Shown piece after piece: positions 6,003-27,837 of a stretch of 50,594 bases of DNA (positions are counted from its first letter, which is position 1; the number at the start of each line of letters is the position of its first letter). Below the pieces are notes generated by a model. That model was not told the origin of the DNA and did no database searches. It saw nothing but the letters and a program-made list of their open reading frames with translations. The position numbers were made by a program, and so were the translations under genes. This DNA is from a virus, in the IMG/VR virus record IMGVR_UViG_3300033144_006685, positions 1 through 50,594 of that record. One strand, given 5' to 3'.

Positions 6003-6206
6003 GCGGGGGGATTTTGGCCCCCAACCCCCAAATGATGCCTGAGGGTCGAGGGCCAGCCAAGCAACCAGAGCGTGGGCTCGCTCTACCTATATTAAAACAT
6101 AAGGGGTGGGCCTTGTCTATATGTGTCTCTTCGTCAAAAGTGGCAGTGATACCGGAGGTCCGTTCGGGCATCGTTTCGGCGGGTGTATATATGGGTCGAG
6201 TCCAGA
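6003..6206. other. Gene-free stretch left of the repeat cluster
   Basis: No convincing gene is seen here on either strand. The stretch starts C-rich (CCCCCAACCCCCAAATG) and becomes AT-richer near 6090-6125. It may contain the packaging or initiation site, but no specific element can be named. Confidence 0.3.
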
Positions 6207-6610
6207 CATTAGTATATACTAATGCGGCATCTATCACTCTGCTGTTACCTCGGTATTAGGCGATACTAATGAGCCATCTATCACTGCAAGTTACCCAGCG
6301 CATTAGTACATACTAATACGGTACTCTATGGGGGTAACCCCCGGCATTAGTATAGGCTAATGCGGACATCTATGGCCGGCAATTACCTCGGGTATTAGTA
6401 TGTACTAATAGGCCGTCTATGACTAGCCAACACGCCGCGCATTAGTACATACTAATGGGCACTCTATCGTCGGCAAGCACACCGCCGATTAGTGCATACT
6501 AATGGGCCGTCTATGGCCGGCGAACACCCCGGGCATTAGTATGCACTAATACAGCGATCTATGGCTTGGGTTTGCCCTCGGCATTAGTATATACTAATAC
6601 CGGGCATTAG
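6207..6610. repeat. Palindromic iteron cluster (9 units plus a half site)
   Basis: An 18 bp palindrome, consensus YATTAGTAYRTACTAATR, starts at 6207, 6254, 6301, 6345, 6393, 6440, 6487, 6534 and 6582, with a half site CATTAG at 6605. Spacing is 47, 47, 44, 48, 47, 47, 47 and 48 bases. The first copy is a perfect palindrome. Each of the first eight palindromes is followed after 5-6 bases by TCTATS and then a variable GC-rich stretch, often ending near CCTCGG or CCCCGGG. The regular spacing and dyad symmetry indicate a dimeric DNA-binding protein filling an array. Possible roles are replication origin, partition site, packaging site or a repressor array for early transcription. Confidence 0.9.
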
Positions 6611-14194: not shown

Positions 14195-14522
14195 AATGGG
14201 AATCTGGCGCAACCAATTTGGTGACACGCCAATCGAGGATCTCCAACCAAAACACCTGACCAATATCTACGCATGGCTCGAGCGAGAGAAGGCGAAAGCC
14301 CAATCAGCTACCGCATGGGATGTATGGGAACTAGATGGACCTAATACCAACTACAGGGATGATGAGTTACAAATAGAAATAGCGATCGATAATCGCCTTA
14401 TGGAACTTGATGAGTGGATGGATGTTATTCAGGTCGAAATCAATGGTAGAATAGGATCCCCGGCATCAGAGGATCCGATAACTAACGACCAGTCGAACCA
14501 AACCCCGCAGCTTCTCGACTAG
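14175..14522 (+). CDS. Hypothetical acidic helical protein, last early gene
   Basis: A 115-residue protein starting MTMLPAEMGIWRNQFGDTPI (an alternative ATG is at 14196). Mostly helical with an acidic centre (LMELDEWMDVIQVEINGR). IEDLQPKHLTNIYAWLERE resembles the short helical region of many phage DUFs. Its 3' end overlaps the convergent dUTPase gene by 41 bases. No clear terminator is present at this junction. Confidence 0.6.
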   Translation: MTMLPAEMGIWRNQFGDTPIEDLQPKHLTNIYAWLEREKAKAQSATAWDVWELDGPNTNYRDDELQIEIAIDNRLMELDEWMDVIQVEINGRIGSPASEDPITNDQSNQTPQLLD

Positions 14523-14958
14523 AGGCATCTAGCTGCTCGACTTGAGCAACGACTGCGGTCAGGTGAGGGAACAACACGAGTTGCCCAACTCGGTCCCCTA
14601 CATTGAATCCTTTTTCAAACGTGGTGCGATTCTCAATCGCTACCGTCAACTCACCTCGGTATCCAGGATCGATCAATCCTGTCATCACGTGTATACCATT
14701 AACTAGCATACTGCTGCGCCCGATAATGAGCGCCATCATCCGATCCGGCAGTTGAACCGCGATATCCGTGTGAAGAAGACGAACATGCCCTGCCGGTACC
14801 GACTCCGCACGACTTACAAACAAGTCGTAACCGGCGTCCCCCGCCAGCGCTCGCCTTGGTTCTCGCCCCGCCTCCGTCAATGGGACGAAGCGAAGCGTAG
14901 CCGGACCGGGCGCGTGCTTTGGCACCATCGGCGGAGGGAGCCTAGGAGGATTTGGCAT
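14482..14958 (-). CDS. dut: dUTP diphosphatase (dUTPase)
   Basis: The 158-residue enzyme hydrolyses dUTP to dUMP and pyrophosphate, keeping uracil out of DNA and feeding dTMP synthesis. All five motifs of the trimeric family are present: AGDAGYDLF (39-47), GRSSM (80-84), GLIDPGYRGELTVAIENR (94-111, with catalytic-type Asp97), GDRVGQLVLFP (121-131) and the flexible C-terminal GFGSTGR (151-157). The start at 14958 is supported by AAGGAGAAGGAAG. A Pro-rich N-terminal stretch (residues 2-17) extends the usual core. It overlaps the upstream gene by 17 bases and ends the polymerase-purZ operon. Confidence 0.9.
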   Translation of the reverse strand: MPNPPRLPPPMVPKHAPGPATLRFVPLTEAGREPRRALAGDAGYDLFVSRAESVPAGHVRLLHTDIAVQLPDRMMALIIGRSSMLVNGIHVMTGLIDPGYRGELTVAIENRTTFEKGFNVGDRVGQLVLFPHLTAVVAQVEQLDASSREAAGFGSTGR

Positions 14959-15271
14959 CTTCCTTCTCCTTCTCCGCATTGGCCTCATCCAGACGATACC
15001 TCTCAATCGTCTTCGTGTCGTATGCATCCGCACGCGCGTACATGCGTGACGGGGCACCCTGCCTCCCATGATTGGATTTCACTCTCGAAACCATAACCTC
15101 CGCTCGCTGGAACCGAGCAAGCGTATTCCGGGCTTTTTGAGTACCCACCTCCCACAGCTTCTCAAGATCCGCCACGTAGTACCACGAGGAGTACGACAGC
15201 TGGAGGAACAACTCTTGATCCGCCTCTGATAGGCGACCCTCTATTCCCGTATCATTCCGATTGAAGACCAC
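14942..15271 (-). CDS. Winged-helix-like protein
   Basis: A 109-residue protein. Residues 13-62 (LSEADQELFLQLSYSSWYYV, then VGTQKARNTLARFQRAEVMV) look like a winged helix-turn-helix with a recognition helix around KARNTLARF. A basic wing SRVKSNHGRQGAPSRMY follows. The C-terminus is charged and helical. It overlaps purZ by 20 bases and dUTPase by 17, so all three are translated from one mRNA. It may regulate this operon. Family not named. Confidence 0.65.
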   Translation of the reverse strand: MVFNRNDTGIEGRLSEADQELFLQLSYSSWYYVADLEKLWEVGTQKARNTLARFQRAEVMVSRVKSNHGRQGAPSRMYARADAYDTKTIERYRLDEANAEKEKEDAKSS

Positions 15272-16358
15272 GGCTTCTCCTAAACTCGCTCAACGTCATC
15301 ACCTTTTCAAACCCGAGTGAGACGTGGGAAACCGAAGTATCGAGCTTACTCTGCACTTCCGCTACGAAGTCCCACTGTTTCTCTTCGGGTAGATAGTCAA
15401 GAAACGTAAGAACCAAACTCGTTGGTCTGCACTCATTGACCGCTGCTTGTGCTTCCTTCCAATCGAACCTCCCAATTCGTCGTACCTTCTTGGTTACAGT
15501 CGTAGTCTCCGGTTCCGCTGGCGGGACGGGCAAATCCTTCCAATCAATCTCGTCCAACGCCCCGCTGTTCCCTGCAATCCGGATTGGGAACGTGCGAAGC
15601 AGCATCATCGTATCGACCGGACCATCATCCCAATGGAGTCCAGTATCGGCCAGCATCTGCTGCGGCGTAATGTCTTGACTCGTCACAGAGGGATAATGCC
15701 CGCTCGCCCGCAGGCTGAGTCCAAACCCCTGCGTTCCTTCAATCCACACCTCATCCGATTCTTCGGGTCCAACGGTACGAAGCGGATTAGCCAGTGATCG
15801 CAGTTGCATCGCCGTGTTGAAGCTGATGAACGGCGCAAGCCAAGGAACTTCGTCAGCCGCGAACGCGTCGCCCACCCGACGAGAAAGCCGAAGGGCGCTC
15901 CGCGCACGCGCCGCGCCTACGCCCTCGCGCGTGCTGCCCGCCTCCATACTCATCTTCTCTTCAGTCTCGATGTCTTGTGGGTCCACAATAAATGCGTTTG
16001 CATCTACCCACAACTTGGGTGCTACACCCATCATTGTTAGCGTCACTTCTCGAATCTCCGCATGTAAGACTTCGAGATTGACCATCGTCCCGCGACCAAT
16101 GAATAGCTGCGTATTGGGAAGGTGCCAGCCACAGGGGATCATCCGCATCTTCCAGTGGTGCTCTCCTGAAAGATGCCCGCCCTCAAAGGCCAGACTATCT
16201 AAACATCCGGGTGGGCATGGCCCGAGCATCGAATGTCCCGCCTGCGGCCCACCCACTCTTACGATTGCTGCTGGATTTTGCTCTTTGCCGAGTGCAGAGA
16301 CGATTGCGCCCTTGCCGCAACTGCCGAATTGTCCGTCCATTACAATTCTGATGGTCAT
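15252..16358 (-). CDS. purZ: PurZ-like aminoadenylosuccinate synthetase (PurA family)
   Basis: A 368-residue member of the adenylosuccinate synthetase family, shorter than cellular PurA (about 430). The P-loop reads GQFGSCGKG (residues 9-17): Ser13 sits where PurA has its catalytic Asp (GDEGKGK). A small residue there is the hallmark of phage PurZ, which joins Asp to dGMP to make the precursor of 2-aminoadenine nucleotides. Other family parts are visible: GGPQAGHS (compare GGHNAGHT), IGRGTMV, STREGVGAA (compare TTGRGIGPA), EGTQGFGL, a SGHYPSVTSQDIT loop and RIGRFDW. ATG 16358 has AAAGGAATG before it. It lies directly downstream of the family A polymerase gene, the usual order partner in Z-DNA phages. 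The alternative is a divergent PurA, but the Ser argues against that. Confidence 0.85.
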   Translation of the reverse strand: MTIRIVMDGQFGSCGKGAIVSALGKEQNPAAIVRVGGPQAGHSMLGPCPPGCLDSLAFEGGHLSGEHHWKMRMIPCGWHLPNTQLFIGRGTMVNLEVLHAEIREVTLTMMGVAPKLWVDANAFIVDPQDIETEEKMSMEAGSTREGVGAARARSALRLSRRVGDAFAADEVPWLAPFISFNTAMQLRSLANPLRTVGPEESDEVWIEGTQGFGLSLRASGHYPSVTSQDITPQQMLADTGLHWDDGPVDTMMLLRTFPIRIAGNSGALDEIDWKDLPVPPAEPETTTVTKKVRRIGRFDWKEAQAAVNECRPTSLVLTFLDYLPEEKQWDFVAEVQSKLDTSVSHVSLGFEKVMTLSEFRRSRGLQSE

Positions 16359-16382
16359 TAATTCATTCCTTTCTAGGAATCT

Positions 16383-16412
16383 AGGAAAGCACGACGTTTG
16401 CTCGGACGTCAA
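16383..16412 (-). promoter_or_regulatory. Predicted promoter of purZ
   Basis: On the minus strand, TTGACG (16407..16412), an 18-base spacer ending GTGC, then TTTCCT (16383..16388). The -10 is weak but the GTGN extension matches other predicted leftward promoters in this genome. Expected start is about 18 bases before the purZ ATG. Confidence 0.4.
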
Positions 16413-16485
16413 ATCCCCTCAATGATCGGTACAATGACGATGCGAAGAATTGTCCCGAACGCCAGTCCATAAATCGATGCACGTA

Positions 16486-18342
16486 CTAACTTGCGTTCAA
16501 CAATAACTCACCTCCAGTCTGCCATCGTTCCCACTCCTGCCGGTCGAGTGGCACCTTATCTCCGATCATTTCCATCTCTGCCCAACTCGGAGTTGCGATG
16601 CTTGGTTCCACGTACAATGGGACTCTGCACTCCCGCCAAACCGACGCCATAAACCACGCAACTGCCCGTGCCGTTATATCAGCTTCCTCCGGCACCGCGT
16701 CTGCTCCGATTTCATCGTGCACCGACATAAACAATCGACTCTTCATCTCTTGTTCGGTGAACCAATTATCAGTTGCGATCATAGCACGCTTGATGATCTG
16801 TGCGCCGGTACCTTGAATTAGCCAAGCAAATGACTTGTGCGGGTCCTCGTGCGGTGGGCATCCGACCTTCCTTCCGTCGAACAGACTGATATACCCACGC
16901 TGCTTCATCACAGATTCTGCTTGCTGGAGGGTACGCGGTAGCGCCGGAAAGCGACGTCTATGAGCCCCAAGCCAACTTCCAGCTTGAGATTCATCAACCT
17001 CCACCCACTCCCCATTCGGTGATAACCCGCTAACTTTGGCCGCGAACGAACGGTTGCCAATCCCATACTGACTTCCAAATACGAGTTCCTTAGTGTCCCT
17101 CCTATCCAGATCGATACCCATCGCCCGGATTTCGTCCTGTACCATTGAGTGGATGTCCCCATCAGGATCCCTGAGAACTTCCATGAGCGTTGGATCTTGG
17201 GCATAGTGTGCTCCCACCCTCACATCAATCTGCGCAAAGTCGTTGAAAATCAACTTCAAATCGTCGGTTGATTGAATTAGCTCTCTAACCCGATGGATTC
17301 CTTGACCCGCTCCATCTCTCTGCTTCGGTAGTCCCTGCATGTTGATAGGATCGCTGCTTGCCAGTCGTCCGGTCTTGGTCGTCGTACGCCAGCTAGTGTG
17401 TACCTTGCCATCGATGCTATTCTTTGCAATCGACAGCATCGGCTCTTGATAACTACCCACTGTATGGATCAGCTGCTTGTAGTCAATAACCCCATCGCGA
17501 AACCAACGAGGAAGATCCGATTTCTGCAGCGTCTCCGCTTGCGCATTCTCAATCGGACTTCCGATTTGCGCCGCTGCCCGAATTACCTGATCGGGACCAG
17601 CCGGGTTGAACCCACGTATTCCGGTCTTCTTGGCCATATTGACCCGGATTTCGTGCGCCCGTTGCAAGTGAGAATCAATAATTTCCTGCGTCAACTCCAT
17701 ATTAATCGGAATCCCACGTGCCGCCATCCGACTCAATACTCGGATCCACTCTTGCTCTGTGTTGTGTACTTCTACTTGATCGCTCGGTAGCTTCTTCATT
17801 CCGAGTTCCCATAGCTTGTAGGTCAGCACCCCATCCATCTTAGCGTATGGTGCCATGATATCCACTGGAACCTGAGTGTAACGCTGAAGCTTGTTCTTCT
17901 TGATGTACGCCTTGAGCGCCGCCTCTTCTTTTCCAGCGCTCTTATCAATCCAGCGTGCGCCTAACCCCTTCAGCGAAAAGTTGGGATCTGGATGTGGATT
18001 GATCGTCCACCACAGACCGATCGTGTCGATGATATCACCTTCAAAGAGAACACCATCGTGCCGCGCCACGTTCTCATCGTACTGCCGGTTGTGCATCAGC
18101 CAAGTGCGCTTCTTATCCTTACCTAACTCATGGATCGAATCTGCCACCCACTTCGCATCTTCGTTTTGATCAAATAGCGTCTCATGTGCCACAGGGATAT
18201 AATCCGTGCCCACATCGGGGTTGTGCAGGACCCACCCACCTGTCCTAAACCCACGATCCCACCAATCCAATCCTGTTGTCTCTGTATCCAGCGCAACCAC
18301 CGGACAGTTGGCGTACGGTAAGACCCGTGGGTGCATCTTCAT
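16486..18342 (-). CDS. Family A DNA polymerase (exo plus pol), DpoZ candidate
   Basis: The 618-residue replicative polymerase has an N-terminal 3'-5' exonuclease of DEDDy type (VVALDTETTGL, with Asp19 and Glu21) and a palm/fingers region. Motif A is NDFAQIDVRVGAHY near residue 367, with Asp where most family A enzymes have Glu after the QI. Motif B is RRDTKELVFGSQYGIG and motif C is SVHDEIG near residue 542. The 5'-3' exonuclease domain is absent. I chose the ATG at 18342 (GGGAG 8 bases upstream) over a TTG at 18357. It lies just upstream of purZ. Polymerases in that position in Z-DNA phages (DpoZ) favour 2-aminoadenine. I cannot show the clade by eye. Confidence 0.92.
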   Translation of the reverse strand: MKMHPRVLPYANCPVVALDTETTGLDWWDRGFRTGGWVLHNPDVGTDYIPVAHETLFDQNEDAKWVADSIHELGKDKKRTWLMHNRQYDENVARHDGVLFEGDIIDTIGLWWTINPHPDPNFSLKGLGARWIDKSAGKEEAALKAYIKKNKLQRYTQVPVDIMAPYAKMDGVLTYKLWELGMKKLPSDQVEVHNTEQEWIRVLSRMAARGIPINMELTQEIIDSHLQRAHEIRVNMAKKTGIRGFNPAGPDQVIRAAAQIGSPIENAQAETLQKSDLPRWFRDGVIDYKQLIHTVGSYQEPMLSIAKNSIDGKVHTSWRTTTKTGRLASSDPINMQGLPKQRDGAGQGIHRVRELIQSTDDLKLIFNDFAQIDVRVGAHYAQDPTLMEVLRDPDGDIHSMVQDEIRAMGIDLDRRDTKELVFGSQYGIGNRSFAAKVSGLSPNGEWVEVDESQAGSWLGAHRRRFPALPRTLQQAESVMKQRGYISLFDGRKVGCPPHEDPHKSFAWLIQGTGAQIIKRAMIATDNWFTEQEMKSRLFMSVHDEIGADAVPEEADITARAVAWFMASVWRECRVPLYVEPSIATPSWAEMEMIGDKVPLDRQEWERWQTGGELLLNAS

Positions 18343-18364: not shown

Positions 18365-20533
18365 TTATTTTGAGACGCGCCAGAGTTCCGATGTCTGGCC
18401 GTTCTCCCGGGACACCCTCTTCATTTCCACCATCCCCGAGTCCTGCAGCGTCTTGAGTAGTCTCTTTACTTCCTCCGCCCTTAGACCCCTGATGTTCACT
18501 GCAACGTCCCATGGCCTTACCCATTCTGGATATTCCTTCTCGAGTCTTGCTATGATTCGATCGACGTATTTCTTCTCTGTCGATTCACTCAGCCAGTCGA
18601 TGCTACGTTGCGCCCAAATCATAGACCGGTTTGCTAGCTCCACGGCTAACTTCGTGTTCCGATCTCTGACGAACATCACCTCACCATAGACCTGCGGGTG
18701 CATCTCACAAAGCTCGAGTAACGCGGCGAGCTTGCGCGCCTTCGTTAGCGTCCTCCCGGGCGGGACGTCGTACGCCGCGCCGCGCTCCAACTCATCGAGG
18801 TCGCCTTCGGGCTGCCAGAGCGCCTCAAGCTCGGCTTGGTACTCTAGCATGATCAAATCACCGGCTGAGGTGTCGATGCCTGGAACTAGTTGGTGGACTC
18901 GGACGAGATCTTCTGTGTGGCTAGCGCCGATATGAGAGAGTTCAACCTTACTAGTTCCATTCGCCAAGCTAACTCGCTCGTGAGTTGCAATTCGGAGGCG
19001 CTCAAGATCCCCCGATAGCGCACTCCTATTGATACTACGTCGCTCGAGGTTATCTGCGATGACAATAAACCTTGAGAGATAGCCGTTAGCCATATCCTCT
19101 GGGTCACCATACTGTCTCCATGTATCCACGTTCGTGCTTGCCATCATAACGGCAAATGTCTTTTCTGCTTGGATTGCCGATCGCCTCGTCGCGTGACCAA
19201 GACTCGCACCGTCGAACATCCTGGAGTAGACCTCCTTGTTCGTCTGCGCGTACCCATCCTTACGGGCCATCTGCTTCAACTGCTCGCTGTACTCTTCGTA
19301 TGCGAGTAGGCTGGGACCCTCAGCTACCTTCTCCATGATACCCTCGGGGCTACCACTCGTTACGATGTTCAGCGCCGGACTGATGGAGTGTACCATCTCC
19401 GATATATTCTGAATCAGCGTCGATTTCCCTGATGCCTGTCTAGCCAGTAGCATCGTCCAAAGACCGAGATTGCCGCCTTGAATTGTGATTTGAGGGAAGC
19501 TGGCCGAAAACCCCGACAGAAACATAAGCGCAATCGTCTCGTCGTTGAATAGGGTTGGACCGCGGAACGTCTCTATGGCCAATTGGCACAGATGGGGCCA
19601 CCAACCGATTGTGTGAATCTCGCCTAGATCCCTAGTCGGTTGCTTCTGCGGGATTGATATCTCTAGGTCGGCTTCATGTTCCTTCATTTGTGCCCAACAT
19701 TTAGCTACGTCGCGCCATAAGTCGCGAGGGCTGCGTCCATCCAGCCTGTATTTGTTCTGCGGTGACCACCACATCATCTGGAATGCGTCGTTGGCCGTCC
19801 ACCCTTCATCCTTTAGTCGGTTGAGGGAGGACCACAGAGCTAACGATCGCTTCCTCGGTGTAGCCATCTCCTCTATGGCGTATGGAGGAGTAATACCGTC
19901 CCATGGTTCAGGCAGGCCATCTGGTCCGGATTCGAGATCCCCGGAAAATGTATCCACTGGCACGATCCCCAACTGATCGAGCATTTGGACATCGACAATA
20001 CTCTCTCCAGAGAAACCAACAACTGCAACAGTTGGGGCTTCGGCATACTTAAAATTACGTGTCCCGGGGATACGGAGTTCCTGTCCAATATCCCATCCGG
20101 ACGCGTCTCCAAAAACGGATAGGGCGCGACAATATCGTTCGGCAAGGTATTTATCAGTTGGCGCATTGAGTCTCCATAATGCCTGATATCGTCCGGGGCT
20201 CGACTCAATCAGAAAGGTTGGTACGGCGGGTAGGGTTTCGGGCCTCATCTCATCAAGGTCGGCCCATAGCCAGACTACTTCATCTTGAAAGTTCTCCTTG
20301 ATCATCCGGATGGAATCTGGCTTGAGGAGTGCCGTCTTGTAGAATACATCGAAGTTAGCTTCGTCTTGGAGGATTGCCCATTCGATGGCCTCCTGCAGGT
20401 TAGAGACTAGAAATCGACGGTAGACGCGTTCGGTGGTGTGTGCATTGCGGCTGGCAAGGACTAGGAATAACTCAGGATCTTGGTCCCGGGTGAAGGTCCT
20501 CAGGAATCTGGTTATTGTCTGGGCGTCTGTCAT
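18365..20533 (-). CDS. AEP primase-helicase fusion
   Basis: A 722-residue replication protein. The N-terminal part is a RepB/PriS-like archaeo-eukaryotic primase: WLWADLDE with metal-binding Asp92 and Asp94, SSPGRYQALW (111-120) and DIGQELRIPGTRN (148-160). The middle and C-terminal part is a DUF3987-like helicase/ATPase with P-loop ARQASGKST near residue 368 and an acidic Walker B-like LLAYEEYSEQ. A C-terminal winged-helix part (PWDVAVNIRGLRAEEVKRLL) ends the protein. It makes primers and unwinds the fork for the polymerase encoded next. AAAGGACACA precedes the ATG. Confidence 0.85.
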   Translation of the reverse strand: MTDAQTITRFLRTFTRDQDPELFLVLASRNAHTTERVYRRFLVSNLQEAIEWAILQDEANFDVFYKTALLKPDSIRMIKENFQDEVVWLWADLDEMRPETLPAVPTFLIESSPGRYQALWRLNAPTDKYLAERYCRALSVFGDASGWDIGQELRIPGTRNFKYAEAPTVAVVGFSGESIVDVQMLDQLGIVPVDTFSGDLESGPDGLPEPWDGITPPYAIEEMATPRKRSLALWSSLNRLKDEGWTANDAFQMMWWSPQNKYRLDGRSPRDLWRDVAKCWAQMKEHEADLEISIPQKQPTRDLGEIHTIGWWPHLCQLAIETFRGPTLFNDETIALMFLSGFSASFPQITIQGGNLGLWTMLLARQASGKSTLIQNISEMVHSISPALNIVTSGSPEGIMEKVAEGPSLLAYEEYSEQLKQMARKDGYAQTNKEVYSRMFDGASLGHATRRSAIQAEKTFAVMMASTNVDTWRQYGDPEDMANGYLSRFIVIADNLERRSINRSALSGDLERLRIATHERVSLANGTSKVELSHIGASHTEDLVRVHQLVPGIDTSAGDLIMLEYQAELEALWQPEGDLDELERGAAYDVPPGRTLTKARKLAALLELCEMHPQVYGEVMFVRDRNTKLAVELANRSMIWAQRSIDWLSESTEKKYVDRIIARLEKEYPEWVRPWDVAVNIRGLRAEEVKRLLKTLQDSGMVEMKRVSRENGQTSELWRVSK

Positions 20534-21477: not shown

Positions 21478-21729
21478 TTAGAAGTCCAATTCCTGTGGCG
21501 ATGATGGCCCAAGCCCCAATGCCGAACGCAATTCCGTAGAGGCACCCTCTTGCAGGTTGGAGAGGATCCGGTCTACCTCCCGAATGTGCTTGCATATCCT
21601 ACCCCCCCTTGCGAATCCCTCACACGTGCATGCACGGTAATTAATACCGTCTCCGATGCTGGTGTGTACGATACCCGGTCGTGAGTCGGACTCGAACTGG
21701 AATGCCAAGCCGACGAAATTAGCTTCCAT
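21478..21729 (-). CDS. Small SWIM zinc-finger protein
   Basis: An 83-residue protein. ACTCEGFARGGRICKHI, about residues 33-49, fits the CxC...CxH pattern of the SWIM zinc finger. This domain is found in MuDR-type transposases, Snf2 proteins and Rad51-associated recombination factors. Here it stands almost alone, preceded by a short strand region and followed by a helix. Start taken at ATG 21729, inside the end of the preceding gene (in-frame ATG also at 21738). It likely binds DNA or a protein partner. Confidence 0.65.
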   Translation of the reverse strand: MEANFVGLAFQFESDSRPGIVHTSIGDGINYRACTCEGFARGGRICKHIREVDRILSNLQEGASTELRSALGLGPSSPQELDF

Positions 21730-22108
21730 CGTAATCATCCAGCATCGCTGCCGTTACTGCGTAACCGGCGATGTCCTTGATGTTATCCGGTTGGGAATGG
21801 GCGACGTCCCGGCAAACTTTCGTCCAGATCATCATGAGCGCCACCTGACGCTCCGTTACGGGGATACCAAGGATGATGGCCCAACCTTCGGCAATGCGTC
21901 GGAAGTTTACCCGTGGTGGATCGTACTTCTTACCGCGTTCCTTCACAATCTGATCCACCTCCATGAGGAAGGCGTTATCCGGGATTGTGATTGCTTCTTC
22001 TGTTTCATCAATGATCGCATTGATTCGGTTCAACTCCTCCTGATCCATTGCCACAGCAGGATCAATCTCTAGAAGCTTCTGAACCATTCCAACCAGTTGA
22101 TTTCTCAT
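21719..22108 (-). CDS. DUF6378-like phage protein, possible MazG-type fold
   Basis: A 129-residue helical protein. The C-terminal half NFRRIAEGWAIILGIPVTER, then ALMMIWTKVCRDVAH and DNIKDIAGYAVTA, has the look of the phage DUF6378 family as I remember it. Its acidic DxxxDxxGYA helix is reminiscent of all-alpha NTP pyrophosphatases. If it is one, it could supply dGMP for PurZ as MazZ does in other Z-DNA phages. This is inference. Start at ATG 22108, overlapping the preceding stop. Confidence 0.6.
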   Translation of the reverse strand: MRNQLVGMVQKLLEIDPAVAMDQEELNRINAIIDETEEAITIPDNAFLMEVDQIVKERGKKYDPPRVNFRRIAEGWAIILGIPVTERQVALMMIWTKVCRDVAHSQPDNIKDIAGYAVTAAMLDDYDGS

Positions 22109-22377
22109 ATCGTATCCATTCCTAGCCAAAAATGATAGTCGGCGGTAATTTTCATGCGAAGATTCTTATTCTTCCCCCTTAGCCTCCTAGATACATTGTA
22201 GAATTGAGAGTCGATGGTCTTTTCTTTCAGACCGGTGATTTTTACTATATCAGCCATGGTGAGTAATTCGACGCACCGAAGATAAATTATCCTCATTTCG
22301 GCAGGAGTAATGTGTATCTCATCACCCTCAATCTCGTTGAGGACGAATTGGAGCCGATGCTCTTCCTCGGGCGTCAT
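22105..22377 (-). CDS. Helix-turn-helix protein, sigma region 4-like
   Basis: A 90-residue protein. ITPAEMRIIYLRCVELLTMA then DIVKITGLKEKTIDSQFYNV and SRRLRGKNKNL form a LuxR/sigma-4 type helix-turn-helix of the kind that reads -35 DNA. It lacks a sigma region 2, so it is not a full sigma factor. Could be a transcription regulator for phage genes. An AAAGGATC ribosome site precedes the ATG at 22377. Overlaps the next gene by 4 bases. Confidence 0.7.
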   Translation of the reverse strand: MTPEEEHRLQFVLNEIEGDEIHITPAEMRIIYLRCVELLTMADIVKITGLKEKTIDSQFYNVSRRLRGKNKNLRMKITADYHFWLGMDTI

Positions 22378-22489
22378 TTTGGGATCCTTTCCCTAGCTTA
22401 CAACCCATGCAGACCGTGCCCGGGGTGAGCCATGCGAACATGCGCCCACACCCGGAGCATCGGAACTGCTTAATCCCTTTCTGCTTCAT
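22328..22489 (-). CDS. Small zinc-ribbon ORF overlapping csrA end
   Basis: A 53-codon frame: MKQKGIKQFRCSGCGRMFAW, then TPGTVCMGCKLGKG, then a tail that overlaps the next gene's start in another frame. The two CxxC pairs (11/14 and 27/30) make a zinc ribbon. It starts 20 bases inside csrA and covers the otherwise empty gap to 22377. The last about 16 residues overlap coding DNA and may be the less constrained end. Moderately likely. Confidence 0.5.
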   Translation of the reverse strand: MKQKGIKQFRCSGCGRMFAWLTPGTVCMGCKLGKGSQNDARGRASAPIRPQRD

Positions 22490-22634
22490 CAACTAGTTCC
22501 GCTCTGAAAACGCTTATCTCGCGGGGAGCTTGAAATCCAAGCTTCACCCTGCTTTTTCCGACGCTGAGGACTTTAATCACAATGTCTCCATCGATGATTA
22601 CCTCCTCGCCTTCCTTTCGTACTAAGTAAAGCAT
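22470..22634 (-). CDS. csrA: CsrA/RsmA family translational regulator
   Basis: The 54-residue product matches CsrA over its whole length: MLYLVRKEGEEVIIDGDIVI, KVLSVGKSRVKLGFQAP, REISVFRAEL. Leu4, Arg6, the GFQAP loop (33-37), and Arg44 of the RNA-binding surface are kept. The usual His43 is Phe. CsrA dimers bind GGA motifs in mRNA leaders and block or stabilise translation. The start at 22634 has GAAGGACCGTG upstream. A longer in-frame extension to 22772 overlaps nrdJ and does not resemble CsrA. On a phage it could tune host metabolism or phage mRNA use. Confidence 0.9.
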   Translation of the reverse strand: MLYLVRKEGEEVIIDGDIVIKVLSVGKSRVKLGFQAPREISVFRAELVDEAERD

Positions 22635-22686
22635 CACGGTCCTTCCGTTCTTTTCCATTTTACCACTCGGACAAACCCGCTGGAAG

Positions 22687-24738
22687 CTAGACTTCTGCGG
22701 GCACCATCGTGATTGGGGTGATCTCGCACGCTTCGTCGTCGCAGAACTCATCTTGACTCTCATGGCCAACACCAGTGAGATTCAGAAATCTGAGCTTGGC
22801 GTGCTCCTCTGCGTATTCCTCTGCAGTGATGCGAATATACGGCATCTGCTCGTAGATACCATCCTCATCTCGAAGGAAGGAGACTGATTTGAATCGAGTC
22901 TCACACCACTCCAACATCTCAACGATGTCATTTGGCTTGTACACCTCAGGGTTGAACTTCACCGTGATGGAGGTGGCGTTCGACGACCAATGCCGATTGA
23001 CGAGCGCAGCCAATTCCAGATGTTGCCAAGGCGTGACATCAGCTTCACCCGGCATATCGAACCCGATGTCGATGGGAAATGAAGCAACGACGGTTCCTGT
23101 TGGATCAGTGACATCTGGCTCAACCCGATAACCAGCGTCGACCAACCGGGCAACGAGGGCCGAGGTCGAAGAGATACGCTGATTTCGAATATAGTATCTT
23201 CCAATGGGATAATGGACCCCGGGGGTAATGCCACTGAGTAGCGATACAGTTCCTGACGGTTTGACGCTGGTGCGTCGGACTGATTCAGGAACTTGAAGCC
23301 ATTGACTCCATTTTGTATCCCAATAACCGCTTTGGAAGTAACCATGGTCCATCCAATCTCTAAGCTGCTTGGTCCCGTGCAGCGCCTCGAATTGAGCGAT
23401 ACCGGAGCAACTCAACCCAATACGATTCCGGAATTGCATGACTTCGCGAGTTTTGGTGTGGCGAATCCGACTATTGGCGAGAGTGACAATCTTACCATAT
23501 AGATAAGCCGCCTTCAATGCGCCGTTGAATTCGTCTTTATTCTCAATGCGGGGCAGGTGAATCTCAACCAACGTGCAAAGCTCATACGATTTGAGCAACT
23601 GCTCCAAACAAGGATTTCCACCTTCGGCGTCGTCCGTGTAATCAAGGATATCATCCATGCGAGCGTAGCTGTTGACATTCTCCAGCCACAGATATCCGGG
23701 CTCGCCGCGATCCCAAGTTTTGGTAGCCGCAGGTAGGTAATCCATACCCTTCTTGGCTAGGATGGTGTTATTGCTGTACGCACCCCATCCGCCCGGGTAG
23801 GTGTTCCGTTCCTCGAAAACTTCCTGATCCTTCAAATCAAGGAAGTCCTCATCTTCCGGACTGCCAATCAGAATTTCCGCCGAGCGACGAACGTTGCCAG
23901 CCACAACAGTCTTTCCGATAAGATTAATAATATCGGCAATAGTAACTGTTGAGATAGGTCGTGAAACATTTTTCTCAAGGCTTCGTCCAATAGCGTAAAG
24001 GAGGTCATCAAGTGCCTCCGGCCCTTCGGCATACCCACCAAATCCGCGGATAGGTGTACTTCGCGGTCGAATCTGGGTGGTATCAAACTGGATAGGTTCG
24101 CTTCCCTCAATGTAAGAATCGATGAGAAGTCGTACCGCTTCACCCCAACCCTCGCGTGAGTCTGGCACCTGATAGATAAAGGGCTCTCCGTATGGGCGAT
24201 GGATGAGGACTCCACTCTTACCCCGCGTGTCGGCACCAATCCCCACTCCGACCATGAGCATTTCAAGCGCCCACGCAAAAATTGATCCCCCCTCTGTGGC
24301 GATATCCTGAGTGGAGACAAAACCGCAATTCTGTAGTGCTTCGACTACACCCCGTTCGTGGACAAACTCGGTACCCATCATCCAGAGCCCACGCCCCGGT
24401 GGGGTCCACTTCAGGTTGAACATCAGATCAAAGGCAGACCGGGCTTCCTTTGACACCTTTTCTTTATCCCACCCTTGGATGTCGTTGTCGCGGACGTGCT
24501 CGAGTAAGATGGTGAACATCCCCTCAATGACACGTCGACAGACATCTACCCACTCCTCGGATTCGTGAATTGGATAGCCCCATTGATCCTCACCAATAAC
24601 GGGCAAACGCGGATTGTCGGCTCGAGAATAGGTGCGTACGAATGTCACCCTTCCAAGCTCGCCAAATCCAAAGGGAGCATCCCTATCTACATACTCATTG
24701 ACAAATTCTTCATCAAGCTGAAATAAAAATGCCATCAT
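22687..24738 (-). CDS. nrdJ: Adenosylcobalamin-dependent ribonucleotide reductase (class II)
   Basis: The 683-residue enzyme reduces ribonucleoside triphosphates to deoxy forms for phage DNA synthesis. It fits the monomeric RTPR type. Cys138 in NCGFVSTQ and Cys388 form the active-site disulfide pair. Cys377 in GGNPCLEQ is the thiyl cysteine, with Asn375 and Glu379 around it, at the same spacing as in the Lactobacillus enzyme. VKPSGTVSLLSG and the C-terminal FCDDEACEI redox pair are also seen. Being class II it needs vitamin B12 but not oxygen, so it works in any host redox state. Start ATGATG at 24738 has AGAAGGAT upstream. Confidence 0.93.
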   Translation of the reverse strand: MMAFLFQLDEEFVNEYVDRDAPFGFGELGRVTFVRTYSRADNPRLPVIGEDQWGYPIHESEEWVDVCRRVIEGMFTILLEHVRDNDIQGWDKEKVSKEARSAFDLMFNLKWTPPGRGLWMMGTEFVHERGVVEALQNCGFVSTQDIATEGGSIFAWALEMLMVGVGIGADTRGKSGVLIHRPYGEPFIYQVPDSREGWGEAVRLLIDSYIEGSEPIQFDTTQIRPRSTPIRGFGGYAEGPEALDDLLYAIGRSLEKNVSRPISTVTIADIINLIGKTVVAGNVRRSAEILIGSPEDEDFLDLKDQEVFEERNTYPGGWGAYSNNTILAKKGMDYLPAATKTWDRGEPGYLWLENVNSYARMDDILDYTDDAEGGNPCLEQLLKSYELCTLVEIHLPRIENKDEFNGALKAAYLYGKIVTLANSRIRHTKTREVMQFRNRIGLSCSGIAQFEALHGTKQLRDWMDHGYFQSGYWDTKWSQWLQVPESVRRTSVKPSGTVSLLSGITPGVHYPIGRYYIRNQRISSTSALVARLVDAGYRVEPDVTDPTGTVVASFPIDIGFDMPGEADVTPWQHLELAALVNRHWSSNATSITVKFNPEVYKPNDIVEMLEWCETRFKSVSFLRDEDGIYEQMPYIRITAEEYAEEHAKLRFLNLTGVGHESQDEFCDDEACEITPITMVPAEV

Positions 24739-25547: not shown

Positions 25548-26313
25548 GATTAATTCCTTCCATCATCGCCGCGTAAAAACTGTTGAACGTTGGGTTCTCC
25601 AGATATGGCGGCAGAGCGATTCTCACTTTGGTTGCATAGACCATCGAAGGGTCTTGAAAGAGCAGGTAACGCATCATCTCACCGGTAGGCTGTCCATCCG
25701 CGCCCAAAACCGGATACGCCTGCAAAAAGCCGACGAAATCCATGTAGGCACTAACGGCCTTATAAACGGCGGGGGACAACTCAGCCCTTACAACCCGGGA
25801 GGTGGCATAACCACCGGGGGTGTTGGGTGACTTATCGTTCCGGTAGAGTGCCGTAAAAATGACGTGTTTCGGGAGATCCCGGAAATTCATCACCATGCGG
25901 CGTAGTGTATTCGTTACCTCTTGCCAGTCTTGTTGTTGTGGCCTTCCTTTCTTACGTCGTGGATCTTTCGCCTCTTCTCTGGACATCACCATGAACAGGA
26001 CTTTATCCTGCACATCGGTAAGCGAATCAATAACGATGGTATCAAAGTCACCAAAGCCATACTGATTCGTTTTTATCCAAACAAAAGTTTCGCGAAGCAT
26101 CTCAATGCTATTGACCCGGTAAATTCGGGTCCTCGGATCCATGGCATGCGGGTTTGATGCCAGAGCAATATCACCGGCCTCCACTGAAATGAAGAGGCAA
26201 TTCGGTGCGGTACTGGCAAAGGTGGTCTTTCCCTGACCAACATCACCATACACCAACATCTTTACAGCATTTGGCTGCAAATCAACTGGATCGATGAGTT
26301 GCGGACTTACCAT
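25531..26313 (-). CDS. Sak4-like RecA-fold ATPase (AAA_24)
   Basis: The 260-residue nucleotide-binding protein has a P-loop YGDVGQGKTT (22-31), Walker B FDTIVIDSLTDV near residue 90, and a polar segment (HVIFTALYRNDK) after it. This is the layout of phage Sak4/AAA_24 recombinases, which anneal or pair ssDNA together with an SSB. The next gene is a DUF669 protein and the one before is a RecB-type nuclease, a common recombination triplet. The start overlaps the nuclease stop by 7 bases. Confidence 0.82.
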   Translation of the reverse strand: MVSPQLIDPVDLQPNAVKMLVYGDVGQGKTTFASTAPNCLFISVEAGDIALASNPHAMDPRTRIYRVNSIEMLRETFVWIKTNQYGFGDFDTIVIDSLTDVQDKVLFMVMSREEAKDPRRKKGRPQQQDWQEVTNTLRRMVMNFRDLPKHVIFTALYRNDKSPNTPGGYATSRVVRAELSPAVYKAVSAYMDFVGFLQAYPVLGADGQPTGEMMRYLLFQDPSMVYATKVRIALPPYLENPTFNSFYAAMMEGINRGRLQ

Positions 26314-27704
26314 CCGACGTCCTCCGTCTCCACTAATTCCGGAACGTCGTCCGCCGTCAATTCGACCAGATCCGGGTTATCTCCGGCAAGTTTGTTCCAG
26401 TAGAATTCCTGCATCAATCCGTCAATGGGTTCTCCTCTCAAGGATGCGGTACACGGGTCGAGAAAACTGCAGTCAATCGCGCACTGGAAGGTTGGAGTTC
26501 GGAATCCTCGCTCGGGGTGCTGGCGAAGTTCCAGTTCCTCGACGCCCTCCCAATACAACTGTTGGTGTGTGATGTCAAGGGCTGCCGGGTTGCGATCCAC
26601 GGTGACGCGCGCCTGCCAGTCGATAGCACGAATCCTCATCAGCGTCGGGACGTGTTGATCGTTCCACTCTTCGATCATGGCATCACGCTCGTCTTTGGTG
26701 GTACCCTTCACCTTCACGTAGGGTTGGACCATAACAGTCCCATGAACAGAATCCGGCTCTGTGGATGCCTTGGAGAGAGCCCATGGAGTAGCTGGTACAG
26801 GGAGGGGGGCAAATCGCTTGGTACCTCCCGGTATAATACCCCCATCAGGAAAGATGAAGCCCCGGTGCTCTTCGAGCGCTGCACAATAATCACGAACGGA
26901 ATTATTGAGGGCTGATTTGGAGATGGTGCCATTCTGGTTCACCTTGACTGCAGTTACAGTCTTCTTGTTGAGGACATTGAAAAGACTACCCCCAACCGGC
27001 GTATCACGGGCGATGCCGAGATGCTCGTAAGCTCCGGCTTGCACCATGTTGACCAGCGCCCAATTGTAGCGGCTGGCCTGTTCGTCTCGATCGAGGGAAT
27101 CGAGGAAAGCCTTCATCATCGAAGAGGTCTTATTCTCATCAATGTACAAGATACCCTTAATCAACCAAACACCATCAAACTCACCACCGTAGAGAATTTC
27201 GGTAGTATCCCCGGTCATGGGATCTTGATATTCCCCAACCCGACCGGTAAAGCGACGGTCCATTTCAATGACTTCAATTCCTCGGTCCAACCCGGGGGCA
27301 ACTTCGAGGTAGGAATACCACATATCGTAGGCGAGTTTGTAGAGTTCATCCCACTCCGCAGTAATCTCATCATCAATATCAACTTCAGCTGCTTTGATGA
27401 AGTACGCTTCTAGCGCCTCAATTGATGCAGCAGTCTGAAGTTCTGGATTGGGAAATTCTCTATTATCCCAAATCACAGCTACTGGAGTATTCCCAGCTTC
27501 TTCTGCTGCTCTGGCCCAATATTGCCCTCGCGATCCCTCGTAATAATACGCCTTCAGCGCCGCGTCGATTGCCGAACCGAGGAACAAGGCACGTGCTCGC
27601 TTGCGCGGGACCCAGCCTAACACTTCACCAAGGACAAAACGGAATCGACAACGTTTCCTCGCCCTTGATCCTGAATTATGAATCTCAATTACTGGTATTT
27701 GCAT
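26307..27704 (-). CDS. PD-(D/E)XK nuclease with Fe-S cysteines (Cas4/AddB-like)
   Basis: The 465-residue product carries the nuclease core with GEFDGVWLI...YIDENKT near residue 190, giving the Asp and Glu-x-Lys. Four Cys fit an iron-sulfur cluster: one at RKRCRFRF (Cys19) and three in CAIDCSFLDPC near residue 413, the same one-plus-three order as in Cas4 and AddB. Members resect DNA ends for recombination. I placed the start at ATG 27704 since AAGGAG lies 7 bases before it. An upstream in-frame stretch to 27830 overlaps the promoter. Confidence 0.82.
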   Translation of the reverse strand: MQIPVIEIHNSGSRARKRCRFRFVLGEVLGWVPRKRARALFLGSAIDAALKAYYYEGSRGQYWARAAEEAGNTPVAVIWDNREFPNPELQTAASIEALEAYFIKAAEVDIDDEITAEWDELYKLAYDMWYSYLEVAPGLDRGIEVIEMDRRFTGRVGEYQDPMTGDTTEILYGGEFDGVWLIKGILYIDENKTSSMMKAFLDSLDRDEQASRYNWALVNMVQAGAYEHLGIARDTPVGGSLFNVLNKKTVTAVKVNQNGTISKSALNNSVRDYCAALEEHRGFIFPDGGIIPGGTKRFAPLPVPATPWALSKASTEPDSVHGTVMVQPYVKVKGTTKDERDAMIEEWNDQHVPTLMRIRAIDWQARVTVDRNPAALDITHQQLYWEGVEELELRQHPERGFRTPTFQCAIDCSFLDPCTASLRGEPIDGLMQEFYWNKLAGDNPDLVELTADDVPELVETEDVGW

Positions 27705-27807
27705 GCCCATGCTCCTTGCTTGCTTGGCTTTGGTGCCGGGGTGGGATGACTCACTCCCCCAAGAAGTAATTCCCAGCTTCTTTCTGAAGCCCCCGGCACC
27801 GACTTTC

Positions 27808-27837
27808 ATAAAAACACGCCGCTTGCCCACACGTCAA
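27808..27837 (-). promoter_or_regulatory. Predicted leftward promoter of the nuclease-recombination operon
   Basis: TTGACG (27832..27837), 18-base spacer ending GTGT, TTTTAT (27808..27813) on the minus strand. This leaves a leader of about 97 bases before the ATG at 27704. Confidence 0.5.

Follow-up and report, generated by a model that had tools for sequence, protein, structure and literature searches.

The replication block of the DNA analysed here (the window, an IMG/VR virus record of 50,594 bases, classed as linear and with a GC content of 54%) is probably a Z-DNA module of a siphovirus, belonging to an early, deep branch of the PurZ0/DutZ type. Both the ancestry of its genes and their order suggest a probable Z-DNA phage, in which 2-aminoadenine (Z) would replace adenine. 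The module branches deeply from a version of the pathway that was described recently, and it is no new kind of system.

Gene organization of the window

Siphovirus modules are present in the window (portal, head maturation protease, major head protein, tape measure, endolysin and terminase). On the minus strand, the replication genes follow the order exonuclease, Sak4-like annealing protein, SSB-like protein, class II ribonucleotide reductase (RNR), small regulators, primase-like protein, PolA, PurZ-like protein, 109-aa protein and dUTPase. The features considered in this work are the following:

26307-27830, minus strand: exonuclease, replication part
22687-24738, minus strand: adenosylcobalamin (B12, class II) ribonucleoside-triphosphate reductase, serving the supply of dNTPs in general
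22470-22772, minus strand: CsrA family protein, encoded between the genes of the RNR and of the DUF6378 protein (PF02599, 65 bits)
21719-22129, minus strand: DUF6378 protein, possible all-alpha nucleotide hydrolase
18365-20533, minus strand: primase/helicase-like replication protein (RepB_primase, DUF3987-like), adjoining the polymerase gene upstream, with a relative in the uncultured virus L026
16486-18357, minus strand: family A DNA polymerase with 3'-5' exonuclease (Pfam exonuclease 2e-10, polymerase 3e-47), Tyr at the Klenow Y766 position
15252-16358, minus strand: PurZ-like (PurZ0-type) putative succino-2-amino-deoxyadenylate synthetase, 368 aa
14942-15271, minus strand: 109-aa protein with no Pfam match, its gene overlapping purZ and the dUTPase gene
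14482-14958, minus strand: dUTPase family protein in the DutZ position, 158 aa, motif II GRSS

A first-pass annotation had proposed a Z genome from a PurZ-like enzyme lying beside a family A polymerase. Pfam searches, HMMs and inspection of the reading frames recovered the genes that it named on the minus strand, where it had placed them or nearby, including the polymerase gene directly upstream of purZ on the same strand, the dUTPase gene and the gene of the B12-dependent reductase. The PurZ-like reading frame spans 15252-16412 and its start is almost certainly the ATG at 16358, just past an AAAGGA sequence, while the dUTPase frame spans 14482-15069 with a likely start at 14958, which has a strong Shine-Dalgarno sequence in front. 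Each of the genes for PurZ, the 109-aa protein and the dUTPase overlaps the next at its end and is preceded by a Shine-Dalgarno-like sequence, so the three very likely form one operon.

The order polA, purZ, small gene(s) and dUTPase is shared with the PurZ0/DutZ phages (Gordonia phage Ghobes, the Arthrobacter phage Wayne group and Microbacterium phage Goodman; PMC12884076), although Ghobes has more genes than the window between purZ and the dUTPase gene. It is also found in Theresita, Olihed, Parvaparticeps and Suppi, as well as in Goodman itself. PolA is also encoded near purZ in phiVC8 and in Acinetobacter phages. No match to the 6 kb block was obtained in a nucleotide search of 50,697 phage records.

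Elsewhere in the window, a 16-base palindrome with a sequence near ATTAGTAYRTACTAAT occurs eight times at 6199-6598, spaced mostly 44-48 bases apart with a first gap of 94; this iteron-like array may be an origin or an operator array. A PrmA-like methyltransferase (54 bits) is encoded at the contig end (49972-50565, minus strand).

The PurZ-like enzyme and its ancestry

The PurZ-like enzyme matched the NCBIfam PurZ model NF038379 with an E-value of 3e-66 and phrog_1211 (phage 2-amino adenylosuccinate synthetase) with 4e-55, values that rule out a chance match. Its score was 223 bits on the PurZ model and 156 bits on the archaeal-type PurA model, so that the PurZ model exceeds the PurA models by at least 67 bits. 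The NF038379 cut-off of 300 bits was not reached, and the enzyme has therefore been classed outside this model, as no more than a deeply branching relative of PurZ0. On the same model phiVC8 scored 397 and Ghobes 346, the PurZ0 proteins of Ghobes and Cicada both passing the cut-off, and the PurZ of an Ochrobactrum phage, whose gene adjoins DatZ and MazZ genes, also remained under it (241). In L020, an uncultured virus that is a tree neighbour of the window, the PurA-type model (259) outscored the PurZ model (229). The best PDB sequence match was PurZ0 (7vf6, 9e-33). An AlphaFold model (mean pLDDT 86, pTM 0.88) has the PurA/PurZ fold, with P. horikoshii PurA as top fold match together with phiVC8 PurZ, PurZ0 7vf6 and S-2L PurZ; the fold comparison by itself does not tell PurA, PurZ and PurZ0 apart.

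A single-protein scan of IMG/VR with the PurZ sequence revealed no relatives, and an alignment search revealed at least 564. Two trees were built, a quick one of 87 rows and a careful one of 48 rows. In the quick tree cellular PurA was set apart with a support of 100, and the window enzyme fell in a 26-row group (98) composed of all cultured PurZ0 proteins and of uncultured viruses. A PurA/PurZ tree had been proposed as a check in the first-pass annotation, and the careful tree separated the enzyme from cellular PurA at 100/100, with the PurZ0 proteins of cultured actinophages and the uncultured viral lineage of the window as sisters (91/94). The group of the window itself (L020, L021, L022, L026, L027, L028 and L044) was supported at 94/90; the length of the window branch (1.3) leaves its precise position inside this group unsure. 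The closest relatives in both the PurZ and the polymerase trees were L020 (3300030613_000010) and L026 (3300025313_000086), uncultured IMG/VR viruses. PurZ identity to the PurZ0/DutZ phages was about 31-36%, and that of the polymerase 21-25%. The trees and the gene order give good support to what appears to be a PurZ-type enzyme. That it is instead an ordinary adenylosuccinate synthetase, raising the AMP/dATP supply of a phage with normal DNA, would agree with the PurA fold, with the first place of P. horikoshii PurA among the fold matches and with a Pfam family named after PurA, but it is very unlikely in view of the Ser that replaces Asp13, the 100/100 separation from PurA, the grouping with phage purZ-linked genes and the lead of the PurZ model.

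The pocket residues were read against the S-2L PurZ residue list of PMC8342488. Numbered from ATG 16358, the motif is GQFG-Ser13-C-GKG, as had been annotated, and this column is Ser in all cultured PurZ and PurZ0 proteins, among them those of the S-2L, phiVC8 and SH-Ab 15497 group (PurZ/DatZ/MazZ phages). Ser13, the equivalents of Thr143, Gln210, Arg260 and Arg157, and the TTVT loop (Thr286-Thr-Val-Thr) are kept. Among the sampled loci, Gln39, which replaces a nearly invariant Asn of the dGMP pocket, is common only to L020, L086, L163 and the window, and Ile261, which replaces a Val near the 2' carbon, occurs otherwise only in L020. L020 also has Ser at the GHS position, as in the window; Cys14 is found in L034 too. 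The column of Asp321 is Asp in all PurZ0 proteins, as in the window, and Asn or Gln in ATP-type PurZ, including the S-2L, phiVC8 and SH-Ab 15497 group. In the PurZ0 paper (Tong et al. 2023), PurZ0 is reported to use GTP and PurZ to use ATP. The text of PMC12884076 states the GTP and ATP preferences of PurZ0 and PurZ in reverse order. Asp321 probably points to GTP as phosphate donor, a step that we infer, given the opposite preferences in this text and in the PurZ0 paper.

Ser13 had been presented in the first-pass annotation as a sign of a phage PurZ. This agrees with all the cultured proteins, but the residue was discarded as sole proof of Z, since it is carried too by many chromosomal PurZ-like paralogs (L100-L179), whose genomes encode a full PurA besides. 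One such paralog scored 240 on the PurZ model and 274 on the PurA-type model, the reverse of the window enzyme. These paralogs occur across bacteria and archaea in a tight operon with genes for a DEDD exonuclease, a dCTP-deaminase-like protein with a C-terminal hydrophobic (membrane) segment and a deoxynucleoside kinase (examples are L100:5893-10703, L107:6209-10732 and L104:6358-10798). The exonuclease and the deaminase-like gene were found together in 52 of the 80 genome loci, and all three partners in 28; none of the 80 viral loci has the cassette. PADLOC gave weak hits only. The operon seems to be a nucleotide-based cassette that has not been described before, perhaps for defence. That the window enzyme acts like these paralogs, with another nucleotide function such as signalling or defence, would be in line with the common Ser13 and the similar PurZ-model scores; it is highly improbable, as the paralogs form a separate clade in the tree, their partners are absent from the viral loci and the window gene sits in a replication operon.

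Control of the nucleotide pool

No DatZ, MazZ-1, MazZ-2, DmtZ or PurB was detected in the window with local HMMs built from S-2L, phiVC8 and other phages, or with Pfam among the reading frames tested, and a six-frame pattern scan revealed no DatZ either. Regular-expression matches to the MazG EExxE and HD patterns were rejected as low-complexity or wrong-frame stretches or as proteins with other roles. The absence of DatZ that had been annotated, and from which a reduced or different pathway had been suggested, is confirmed, and it is not odd among PurZ0 phages. Their DutZ, known from Ghobes and Wayne, is a dUTPase-family enzyme that hydrolyses dATP and dGTP and replaces DatZ and MazZ (PMC12884076). 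A dUTPase gene lies within 4 kb downstream of purZ in 11 of 11 cultured PurZ0 loci and in 59 of 80 IMG/VR loci (23 IMG/VR purZ loci end soon past purZ), and DatZ in none. In the six cultured PurZ loci, DatZ is present and the dUTPase is missing. The first-pass annotation had missed that the dUTPase of the window stands where PurZ0 phages carry DutZ, a position that probably explains the missing DatZ.

The sequence of the window dUTPase appears intermediate. Motif II is GRSS, as in DutZ, and the motif III hairpin HVMTGLID resembles the ordinary type. The closest relative, 46% identical, was a DutZ domain that forms part of a purZ-linked fusion protein (L211), and the best-ranked matches among isolate phages were the DutZ proteins of PurZ0 phages; in the dUTPase trees the protein was placed on the branch that separates DutZ from ordinary dUTPases (84 against 94 support). 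DutZ activity is likely from the position of the gene, after purZ in the operon with one 109-aa gene between and overlapping frames, and not from the sequence of the protein.

The window shares with the PurZ0/DutZ phages the absence of DatZ and MazZ, the Asp of the PurZ donor pocket and the ancestry of purZ and polymerase. It differs from them in the lack of DmtZ and PurB, the polymerase Tyr instead of Phe, Gln39 and the intermediate dUTPase; Ghobes and Keanu carry the adenylosuccinate lyase PurB, and the Microbacterium, Micrococcus and Curtobacterium PurZ0 phages are without DmtZ, like the window. The S-2L, phiVC8 and SH-Ab 15497 group, unlike the window, has DatZ plus MazZ or DUF550/5664. 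L026 resembles the window in its primase, Sak4-like and exonuclease neighbours, but no dUTPase was found next to purZ in L020 or L026, and an NDT-like reading frame, read by eye, takes the place of the dUTPase in L026. The DUF6378 protein was considered as a substitute for MazZ and rejected: it occurs in mycobacteriophages and in other phages without a match in the PurZ search, it had no meaningful PDB match, and its three-row AlphaFold model (pLDDT 49) was too poor. A single-protein IMG/VR scan with it gave no relatives.

The DNA polymerase and the genome base

As purZ-linked sequences were over-represented in a first polymerase tree, it was repeated with polymerases sampled by likeness regardless of purZ. 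In this mixed set, the window was placed in an 18-row clade (99) in which every other polymerase is purZ-linked. The careful tree (37 rows) gave a 15-row clade at 100/99, in which the genes of the other 14 members all adjoin purZ, with 18 unlinked polymerases outside. The window, L020 and L026 grouped at 99/98; because the same two viruses lie nearest to it in the PurZ trees as well, purZ and the polymerase gene very likely travelled together. We regard the polymerase tree as the strongest independent evidence.

Comparison with DpoZ, a further check proposed in the first-pass annotation, gave a divided result: the purZ-linked clade is firm, but phiVC8 DpoZ lies elsewhere in the tree, as does that of Klebsiella phages, and the polymerase of the S-2L, phiVC8 and SH-Ab 15497 group is of a different lineage. 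Two origins have been reported (PMC12884076), and our tree agrees. The sole mark common to both DpoZ clades is Phe for Tyr in helix O (F459 in phiVC8 DpoZ; PMC8599892). The window polymerase keeps Tyr at the Klenow Tyr766 position, has intact proofreading motifs and missed the DpoZ models NF038380 (145.6 of 500 bits) and NF038381 (36.1 of 350 bits). Tyr was found at this position in 47 of 86 purZ-linked polymerases and Phe in 37 (loci L003-L280), and Keanu and Galactica, both cultured phages of Streptomyces, are of the Tyr type, so that the published Phe mark is not general.

These results bear on an unlikely alternative, in which PurZ makes dZMP, the polymerase is unselective and the dUTPase ordinary, and the genome is only part Z or its Z content varies with the host dATP pool. 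The Tyr766, the missed DpoZ cut-offs, the dUTPase not grouped with DutZ and the lack of DatZ, MazZ and DmtZ speak for it. Against it stand the purZ-linked ancestry of the polymerase (100/99), the Tyr in the PurZ0 phages Keanu and Galactica, and the S-2L polymerase, which accepts both A and Z in a genome that is still all Z, according to PMC8065100.

For the preferred PurZ0/DutZ type module, homology of PurZ, polymerase and dUTPase, ancestry of the first two, gene order and overlapping frames are read directly from the DNA, and the enzyme roles are inferred. The dUTPase-family enzyme would hydrolyse dATP and dGTP (and dUTP), removing the competing dATP and supplying dGMP, which PurZ would condense with aspartate, the phosphate probably coming from GTP, as PurZ keeps the Asp321 of PurZ0. 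Host PurB and kinases would complete dZTP, and the phage PolA would copy the genome with Z replacing A, a change expected to shield the genome from restriction by the host. Against this reading stand the missed NF038379 and DpoZ cut-offs, the higher PurA-type score of L020, Tyr766, the place of the dUTPase in its trees together with its ordinary-looking motif III hairpin, and Gln39.

More tentatively, the altered dGMP pocket (Gln39, Cys14), the polymerase without Phe and the dUTPase between ordinary and DutZ types may mark a wholly uncultured deep Z-DNA branch that represents a transitional stage on the way to the assembled DutZ pathway, with one enzyme for all pool control. If the window does belong to a Z-DNA phage, such phages would extend well past the cultured groups, neither Ser13 nor the polymerase Phe would be a safe marker, and the Tyr-type polymerase and the intermediate dUTPase would be candidate enzymes for learning which features decide Z over A.

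Other purZ-linked polymerases (L021, L023, L022 and L027) grouped next to E. coli Pol I, outside both DpoZ clades, which may point to a third origin of the polymerases of Z phages.
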